Of a DNA stretch of 44,661 bases, positions 16,928-20,148 are shown one piece after another. The first letter of the stretch is position 1, and every line of letters begins with the position of its first letter. The stretch is from the NCBI GenBank assembly GCA_017608305.1, contig JAFCGC010000009.1, forward strand, positions 1 through 44,661. The letters run 5' to 3'. The translations under genes and the position numbers were made by a program. The notes under the pieces are model-generated. The model saw nothing but the letters and a program-made list of their open reading frames with translations, ran no database searches and was not told the DNA's origin. This DNA comes from Candidatus Pacearchaeota archaeon. Lineage in GTDB: Archaea > Nanobdellota > Nanobdellia > Pacearchaeales > GW2011-AR1.

Positions 16928-16951
16928 CATTTTATAATTATATCACAATCA

Positions 16952-16963
16952 ACTTTATATATT
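16952..16963 (-). promoter_or_regulatory. OFOR operon promoter
   Basis: The minus strand reads AATATATAAAGT, a TATA box about 70 nt upstream of korA. It gives a predicted leader of about 45 nt that contains the inverted repeat at 16909-16927. Confidence 0.5.
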
Positions 16964-16974
16964 CCCCTATTATT

Positions 16975-16988
16975 CAAAGGTTATAAAC
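16975..16988 (+). promoter_or_regulatory. mre11-rad50 promoter
   Basis: CAAAGGTTATAAAC combines a BRE-like purine stretch with a TATA box. The expected transcription start is near 17008-17012. Confidence 0.55.
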
Positions 16989-17004
16989 TTTTTTAATCTA
17001 AAAA

Positions 17005-17076
17005 ATGGTAAAATCCACATACTTAAGCAACCATATTGGCGAAGTAATCGTAAGAATTTGGAGTTGGAAATGGTGA
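17005..17076 (+). CDS. possible 23-aa leader ORF upstream of mre11
   Basis: An ATG at 17005 opens a 23-codon frame ending in the aromatic run WSWKW. Its TGA overlaps the mre11 ATG (ATGGTGA). The ATG lies close to the predicted transcription start, so the ORF could be the first thing translated, or its start could fall just outside the mRNA. It may serve for coupling or be chance. Confidence 0.3.
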   Translation: MVKSTYLSNHIGEVIVRIWSWKW

Positions 17077-18098
17077 AATTTGCACATATGGCAGATATCC
17101 ACCTTGGTGGATGGAAACAACCAGAACTTCAAAAACTTAATTTTGAATCTTTTAAAAAAGCATTAGATATTTGTATAAATGAAAAAGTTGATTTTGTTTT
17201 GATATCTGGAGATTTGTTTGATTCTGCTTACCCTTCAATAGAAGTTCTAAAAGTTGCAGATTTTGAAGAAAAAGAAAATGAAATTCTTTTAAATCCAATT
17301 ATTCATGAAGGAATTGCTCTTTATGGTTATCCTGGTAAAAAATCAGGATTAGAAATTAATGATTTAAGAAAAGTTAAACTAAATCAAGCCCCTGGAATGT
17401 TTAAGATTCTTATGCTTCATACAACTCTAGACAAGGCAAAAGGAACCCTTCCAATAGATGCTTTAGAAGCAGACCTCTTACCTAAAGTAGATTATTATGC
17501 CTTAGGCCATTTACATATGGATTTCCAGTATGAAAATTTTGTTTACCCTGGACCTTTATTTCCAAATAATTTTCAGGAGTTAGAGGATTTACAACACGGT
17601 GGCTTTTACATAGTTCACAATGGACCACATAATTCTTTCAACAGAATAAAAGTTCCCATAAAAGAAGTTGTTTCATTTAATATAGAGATTAATGATGCTC
17701 TTGCTGCAACAGAGAAGATAATCTCTGAATTGGAACAAAAGGATTTAGAAGACAAAATTGTTCTTTTGAGATTAAAGGGAGAATTAGAAAAAGGAAAAAA
17801 TTCAGATATAAGATTCAACCAAATAGAAGAATTTGTTAAACAAAAAAAAGTATATTTTTTATTGAAAAATACACGTGATTTAAAAACAAGAGAATTAGAA
17901 TTAGAAATTGATGTTGAAGATACAGGAAATATGGAAGAAGAAACAATAAAGATTTATTCAGAAGAAAATCCTTCTGGTTTTAATGATCTTATTTTCCAGT
18001 TAATAAATTCTTTTGCGATTGAAAAACAAGAAGGAGAAACAACCGACAATTTTTCAAATAGGTTGTTAGAGGAAGCAAAAAAAATTTTGAAGTTTTAA
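17070..18098 (+). CDS. mre11: Mre11 double-strand-break repair nuclease homologue lacking motif III
   Basis: Mre11 normally forms a complex with Rad50 and processes DNA ends with a two-metal phosphoesterase site. Motif I (ADIHLG), motif II (SGDLFD), the MLHT segment and motif V (YYALGHLH) are present. Motif III (GNHD/GSHD), which supplies a metal-binding Asn/Ser and the catalytic His, is absent: the sequence runs from YPSIEVLKVA straight into DFEEKENEIL with no frame break, a gap of roughly 45 residues. The cap and Rad50-binding C-terminus follow. The track start at 17058 is a TTG; the ATG at 17070 is preferred. Confidence 0.9.
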   Translation: MVKFAHMADIHLGGWKQPELQKLNFESFKKALDICINEKVDFVLISGDLFDSAYPSIEVLKVADFEEKENEILLNPIIHEGIALYGYPGKKSGLEINDLRKVKLNQAPGMFKILMLHTTLDKAKGTLPIDALEADLLPKVDYYALGHLHMDFQYENFVYPGPLFPNNFQELEDLQHGGFYIVHNGPHNSFNRIKVPIKEVVSFNIEINDALAATEKIISELEQKDLEDKIVLLRLKGELEKGKNSDIRFNQIEEFVKQKKVYFLLKNTRDLKTRELELEIDVEDTGNMEEETIKIYSEENPSGFNDLIFQLINSFAIEKQEGETTDNFSNRLLEEAKKILKF

Positions 18099-18099
18099 A

Positions 18100-20148
18100 A
18101 TGCTTTTTAAAAAAATTAAGCTAAATAATATTAGGAGTTATGAAAACGAAGAAATAGATTTTTCAAGAGGATCTACTTTACTTTCAGGAGATATTGGATC
18201 GGGTAAGACTTCAATTCTGTTAGCAATTGAATTTGCTTTATTTGGATTACAACCAGGTCAGAGGGGAACTTCCTTGTTAAGAAATGGGAAAAATAAAGGG
18301 GGAGTTGAGATGGTATTTGAGATAGAAGGAAAAGATGTTCTGATCGAGAGAAGTTTGAAAAAAGCAAAAACTGTCTCACAAGATTATTGTGCAATAACTA
18401 TTGAAAATGAAAAGAAAGAAGTATCTGTAACAGAATTAAAAAATAAAATTTTAGAATTATTAAATTATCCAAAAGAATTTACTAAAAAACAGAATTTATT
18501 ATACAAGTTTACAGTTTATACTCAACAAGAAGAAATGAAACAGATTATCTTACAAGACCCTGAAACAAGAATAAACACTCTTAGGCATGTTTTTGGAATA
18601 GATAAATACAAGAAAGTTCTAGAAAATGTTTCAATCGTTGCTTCAAAAATAAGAGAAGAAAAAAGAATGAAAGAAGGAATCACTGCTAATTTAGATCAAG
18701 ATAAGGCAGATATTGTTGTTAAAGAAGATGATCTTGAAACAAAACATTCTAATTTATCTTCAATTGAAAAAGAGTTCTTTTTAAGAAAGGAGGAAAGAAA
18801 AAAAATACAAGAAGAACAAAGTGGGATTTCAGAGAAAATACAAGAGAAAAAAGAATTAGAACAAGAAGTAGAAAAGATAAAAATAAGAGCTTTAAATAAA
18901 CAAGAATCAATCTCAAATAATTTAAAATTAATAGATCGATTGAATAAAGAAGTTGAAGAGATAGATGAAAAAAAATTTGAAGAATCTCAAATTCCTAGGC
19001 TAGAAGAAGATTTAGATTTGTTAAAAAAACAAAAAGAAGAATTAAATGAAAAAAATTTAAACCTAACAACACAAATTAATTCCCTAGCTCTTAAAAATCA
19101 AGAAAATGAATCTCTGAAAATGAAAATATCAACAATTGATATTTGTCCAACATGTTTGCAGGATGTTGATTCTGTTTATAAGAGTAATGTGGTTAACAAG
19201 TTTGATTCAGACACTTCAAATAATGTGAAACAAATTGAAGAATTAGCCCTTGAAAAAAAACTTGTGAGAGAAAATATAAATAAATTAGACAATGAATTGT
19301 TTGAAAAAGAAAAACAATTAGGAGATTCAAAAATCTTAAAAATAAGAATTCAAGGGATTCAGGAAAAAAAGAAACAAATAGAGGAAATAATAGAAACAAA
19401 TCAATTGTTTGAAAAAGACATCGCAAGTTTGACCCAACAAATTGATAGTCTAAAGAATTCTATTTTTGAATTAAGTAAATTTGATAATATTTTTGAAGTA
19501 AAACAAAGAGAATTAGATGAAGCCTTAAAGCAAGAAAGAATAGTTGAAATAAAAATAGCAGAATTAAAAAAGGAGATAGAAGTTTTTTCTAAACAAATAG
19601 AAGAATTAAAAGAAAGAATAAAAAAGACAGAAGAGGTTAGAAAACAACTAAATTATTTGAATGAATTAGAAAATTGGTTATCTAAAAAATTCTCTACTCT
19701 TATTTCCTTTATAGAAAAAAATGTTATGGTTAAACTTAAATCAGAATTTTCTAAACTCTTTGCAGAATGGTTTGCAATGCTTGTTTCAGATAATTTTAAT
19801 GTCATGCTCAGAGATGATTTCACTCCAGTAGTTGAACATCAAGATTATGAAATAGATTACTCTTATCTTTCAGGAGGAGAAAGAACTGCTATTGCTCTTG
19901 CTTATAGGTTAGCATTAAATCAAGTCATTAACTCTTTATTGAGTAAAATAATGACAAAAGGAATTGTGATATTAGATGAACCTACAGATGGATTTTCTGA
20001 ACAACAACTAGACAAAATGAGAGAAGTCTTAGAACAATTAAAAGTTGAACAATTAATAATCGTGAGTCATGAACCTAAAATTGAAGGGTTTGTGGAAAAT
20101 GTAGTAAGGTTTAAAAAAGAGGACGGGATTTCTAGGAAAGTGAGTTAG
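18100..20148 (+). CDS. rad50: Rad50 ATPase
   Basis: SMC-like ATPase partner of Mre11 in double-strand-break repair. Visible features in order: Walker A GDIGSGKTS near residues 30-38, Q-loop YTQQEEMK near 145, long coiled coils, the zinc hook CPTC at about 349-352, the ABC signature LSGGERTAIALAYRLAL near 588-604, Walker B GIVILDEPTDGF near 621-632 and the switch His in VSHEP. All ATPase elements look intact. At 682 aa it is shorter than the roughly 850-900 aa typical of archaeal Rad50, mainly in the coiled coils. It starts one base after mre11. Confidence 0.95.
   Translation: MLFKKIKLNNIRSYENEEIDFSRGSTLLSGDIGSGKTSILLAIEFALFGLQPGQRGTSLLRNGKNKGGVEMVFEIEGKDVLIERSLKKAKTVSQDYCAITIENEKKEVSVTELKNKILELLNYPKEFTKKQNLLYKFTVYTQQEEMKQIILQDPETRINTLRHVFGIDKYKKVLENVSIVASKIREEKRMKEGITANLDQDKADIVVKEDDLETKHSNLSSIEKEFFLRKEERKKIQEEQSGISEKIQEKKELEQEVEKIKIRALNKQESISNNLKLIDRLNKEVEEIDEKKFEESQIPRLEEDLDLLKKQKEELNEKNLNLTTQINSLALKNQENESLKMKISTIDICPTCLQDVDSVYKSNVVNKFDSDTSNNVKQIEELALEKKLVRENINKLDNELFEKEKQLGDSKILKIRIQGIQEKKKQIEEIIETNQLFEKDIASLTQQIDSLKNSIFELSKFDNIFEVKQRELDEALKQERIVEIKIAELKKEIEVFSKQIEELKERIKKTEEVRKQLNYLNELENWLSKKFSTLISFIEKNVMVKLKSEFSKLFAEWFAMLVSDNFNVMLRDDFTPVVEHQDYEIDYSYLSGGERTAIALAYRLALNQVINSLLSKIMTKGIVILDEPTDGFSEQQLDKMREVLEQLKVEQLIIVSHEPKIEGFVENVVRFKKEDGISRKVS

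Follow-up and report, generated by a model that had tools for sequence, protein, structure and literature searches.

The window analyzed here, a 44,661-nt stretch from an assembly of a Candidatus Pacearchaeota archaeon (GCA_017608305.1, contig JAFCGC010000009.1), carries an mre11 open reading frame directly followed by rad50 (Table 1). The D-x-H of motif I, the GD of motif II and the histidines of the MLH and GHxH segments, by which Mre11/SbcD proteins are recognized, are all present (D9/H11, GDLFD, MLHT and GHLH), as the preliminary description had read them, and so is an adjoining full-length Rad50/SbcC gene. The ORF contains no GNHD or GSHD, the sequence of motif III, which in Mre11 supplies a metal ligand and the catalytic histidine. 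The Pfam Metallophos match in the window Mre11 is restricted to residues 3-62; in an NCBIfam scan of an intact relative, Mre11 models matched over most of the protein. Archaeal Mre11 of P. furiosus (PDB 1ii7) and M. jannaschii (3av0) has motifs I, II, MLH and GHxH and the Rad50 neighbor in common with the window Mre11, but the latter lacks the stretch around N84-H85 (motif III).

Table 1 Features of the mre11-rad50 locus in the window
Feature	Position	Strand	Description
mre11 ORF	17070..18098	+	342 aa plus stop; ATG start; 44-codon internal gap compared with 386-aa family members
Motif I, D9-x-H11 metal ligands	17094..17102	+	Present; invariant in 52-row alignment
Motif II, GDLFD (residues 47-51)	17208..17222	+	Present; D51 aligned to P. 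furiosus His52
Deletion junction K61/V62	17252..17253	+	132 nt absent, corresponding to alpha2, beta3, GSHD motif III and alpha3 of relatives
MLHT segment, metal-ligand His117	17412..17423	+	Present; invariant in alignment
Motif V, GHLH (H147, H149)	17505..17516	+	Present; invariant in alignment
rad50	18100..20148	+	682 aa; directly after mre11; full length, all ATPase motifs, CPTC zinc hook

Rad50 falls within the size range of its relatives (681-688 aa), and P-loop GDIGSGKT, CPTC hook, LSGGE signature, Walker B VILDEP and H-loop VSHEP are legible in its sequence, in agreement with the earlier reading of every ATPase motif. NurA (PF09376) was not found in the window genome, which is 84% complete, so that its absence carries little weight. 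One HerA-like DUF87 protein is encoded at C15:3068-3664.

Alignment with 29 relatives, and then of 52 rows, resolves the missing part as one clean 44-residue gap between K61 (17250-17252) and V62 (17253-17255), corresponding to 132 nt with the frame kept; Mre11 of the nearest relatives comprises 386 aa compared with 342 aa in the window. The preliminary description had placed a frame-keeping loss of the GNHD/GSHD segment, about 135 nt in size, at 17220-17300. Comparison with close relatives, which it had proposed, locates the loss inside that interval and reveals the estimate to be nearly exact. In relative G106, the absent stretch reads ETFAQFKKIKEAKIPCFIIAGSHDYSVSGKTFLDVLEKAGFCKN. GSHD is carried by all 55 full-length relatives read, and a profile of 51 intact relatives places it on the P. 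furiosus GNHD, N84-H85 in 1ii7 (E = 8e-29). Among these 51 relatives, 27 positions conserved in at least 90% fall inside the gap.

Two further residues set the family apart from the P. furiosus and M. jannaschii proteins. The motif II exonuclease histidine, H52 of P. furiosus Mre11, is Asp in the window and in family relatives, and the family has Ser where P. furiosus has the Asn of motif III. Intact family members thus have a variant metal site, too.

Structure of the assembled protein

An AlphaFold2 model of the Mre11 of G106 served as control (mean pLDDT 91), in which the stretch in question forms a helix (57-72), a strand (77-80), the GSHD loop and a second helix (93-99). Structure prediction had likewise been suggested in the preliminary description, and the resulting model of the window Mre11 (mean pLDDT 86.9, below 50 at residues 53-60) is devoid of alpha2, beta3, the GSHD loop and alpha3, leaving the calcineurin-like core fold incomplete. 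The target-normalized TM-score to P. furiosus Mre11 (1ii7_A) drops from 0.71 for the control to 0.56 for the window protein. As AlphaFold2 is no test of stability, these models speak only indirectly to folding, and the assembled 342-aa protein may be unable to fold. In P. furiosus Mre11, the H85S substitution alone abolishes exo- and endonuclease activity, and this variant was still made and assayed in complex with Rad50 (PMC8824468). The nuclease-dead laboratory form (PDB 3dsd) resembles the window Mre11 in that the motif III histidine is gone; however, it differs by one substitution with the fold kept, whereas the window Mre11 is short of 44 core residues. Because H85S is sufficient for inactivation and core elements are absent from the model, the protein as assembled, with its phosphoesterase core cut, could hardly be a nuclease.

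Distribution of the gap among relatives

The match list obtained with an intact relative as query comprised 150 family genomes, and in 146 of them, as counted by eye, one uninterrupted match covered the whole protein. The four exceptions are the window genome, G013 (insertion), G015 (frame-breaking deletion) and G178, in which a contig end cuts the gene; the clean 44-residue gap is therefore confined to the window genome among those 150. A scan of GTDB 220, from which near-identical records may have been withheld, returned relatives only and no second assembly of the species. Relocation of the segment was also considered: no second copy of the GSHD segment, and no moved or split arrangement acting in trans, was found in the genome (all contigs except seven shorter than 3 kb). 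The 44 open codons that precede the ATG (16938-17069) yielded no homology to the missing segment, and their matching length is a coincidence. No second Mre11/SbcD was found among the four other metallophosphoesterase loci of the genome, none of which was matched by the Mre11 query; an NCBIfam scan of two of these loci gave at best a YfcE-like assignment.

Outside the gap, 100 positions reach the 90% conservation threshold among relatives, and the window Mre11 is unchanged at all 100, a score equaled only by the best-conserved relatives; every remaining metal ligand is kept. In a three-genome relative-rate comparison of 219 genes, the share of divergence on the window branch places Mre11 at the 84th and Rad50 at the 38th percentile, neither being exceptional. 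After an old loss of the nuclease the other metal ligands should have drifted, which they have not. Unchanged conserved positions and ordinary rates give no sign of relaxed selection following such an old loss, and point to a loss that is either recent or not real.

Lesions elsewhere in the assemblies

The whole window genome was compared with relatives G106 and G002 across 310 one-to-one ortholog trios. A strict filter left the Mre11 gap as the sole large clean deletion of the window genome; a second search that also admitted frame changes revealed two more. In gyrA (L114, C38 about 9015), 55 nt are lost from a conserved part where the C-terminal domain begins, breaking the frame, with 81% identity to G106 downstream of the deletion. 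A gene for an SPFH/stomatin-like protein (L078, C32 about 18120), located near a contig end, has lost 58-61 nt, again with a broken frame. Both lesions are bordered by strongly conserved sequence on either side. Deletions of a like kind hence occur elsewhere in this assembly regardless of frame, and one in-frame plus two frame-breaking deletions is what blind deletion predicts, two-thirds of such events being frame-breaking. The relatives' assemblies display similar damage: EF-1A of G106 (L131, contig C13, 3404-4045) has lost 48 nt in frame near a contig end, and several frame-changing lesions were identified in G002. Within this background of like lesions, which may stem from assembly or from mutation, the Mre11 gap is not conspicuous as a selected change. 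A separate feature of G106 is found in its GyrA (L138, contig C20, 1241-4876), where an insertion of ~390 aa lies between GNFG and SVDGDP; it is intein-like, with Cys at its start, HN-S at its end and an HNH-like stretch, and is absent from the window genome and G002.

Within Mre11, two relatives carry deletions overlapping the region of the window gap. The one in G015 (L022) spans about residues 50-74 and removes 74 nt; the one in G062 (L090) spans about residues 64-78, removes 45 nt in frame and leaves GSHD in place. This overlap may be due to chance, to difficulties in assembly or to a hot spot. Several other family contigs stop within mre11, five of them at residues 54-144 (G101, G198, G030, G086 and G060). 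The cross-genus DNA identity of the gene peaks inside the deleted stretch, at codons 89-99, which are 80% identical and contain exact 21-nt matches in 4.9% of genome pairs; across the whole deleted stretch such matches amount to 2.2% compared with 0.7% in the rest of the gene, a roughly threefold difference. The G015 and G062 deletions are situated just upstream of this peak. The contig has no Ns at the junction, and no long direct repeat was found to flank it, shared sequence being about one base at most as judged from relatives, which argues against a simple repeat-mediated collapse.

Discussion

The gene is probably an ordinary GSHD-type mre11 encoding about 386 aa alongside rad50, from which metagenome assembly dropped 132 nt. 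This reading is favored by the two frame-breaking deletions in other conserved genes and by the lack of decay in the rest of Mre11; of the two explanations offered in the preliminary description, loss during assembly is accordingly the better supported. The true gene of the organism would then encode an intact archaeal Mre11 nuclease of the GSHD type with Rad50 as its partner. The deleted stretch contains the DNA most alike between related species, in which co-occurring relatives would share k-mers, and a plausible cause of the loss is that the path of a low-coverage genome in a short-k assembly graph was mis-joined at these k-mers. Pseudogenes produced by assembly are documented (Cooley and Wright 2024, PMC11017572), and the window gap can be likened to such gene lesions arising from assembler, sequencing platform or coverage; those cases are frameshifts and internal stops, however, whereas the Mre11 gap keeps the frame. 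Counting against an assembly error are this kept frame, although one in three blind deletions would preserve it, the contig free of Ns without a long direct repeat at the junction, and the consideration that the gyrA and SPFH lesions could be true mutations.

We regard as rather unlikely, though still worth weighing, a true and recent deletion in the sampled strain, which would make the gene a loss-of-function allele, with the nuclease gone and probably the fold as well, and not an adapted protein. The clean junction without Ns and the kept frame would suit such an event, as would a mutational hot spot possibly marked by three MAGs deleted at one place in Mre11, one of which, in G015, is nevertheless frame-breaking. 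Reduced symbiont-type genomes also lose genes readily. On the other hand, mre11 and rad50 are otherwise free of decay, and the gyrA lesion would need to be tolerated as well. Far less probable is an Mre11 that has evolved to work without nuclease activity and with its phosphoesterase core trimmed, solely as a partner of Rad50 that tethers DNA, provides a scaffold or senses breaks; the scaffold or sensor role put forward in the preliminary description gained no positive support. An intact Rad50 adjoins the gene, frame and C-terminal part are kept, the remainder is modeled fairly confidently by AlphaFold2, and the nuclease-dead H85S protein of P. furiosus could still be assayed as a Rad50 complex (PMC8824468), all of which such a protein would accommodate. 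Yet no other matched genome among those listed for the family displays the clean gap, and the other metal ligands are all invariant, although a protein whose nuclease was lost long ago could do without them. Moreover, the gap reaches beyond the metal loop to take alpha2, beta3 and alpha3, thereby removing core secondary structure, with low model confidence at residues 53-60 and a reduced similarity to P. furiosus Mre11.

A real gap kept by selection would amount to a natural separation of the structural and nuclease roles of Mre11. More likely it serves as a warning: a MAG gene that lacks some tens of bases in frame can mimic an adapted loss of catalysis, and frame-breaking lesions within the same assembly provide a useful yardstick for judging in-frame ones.
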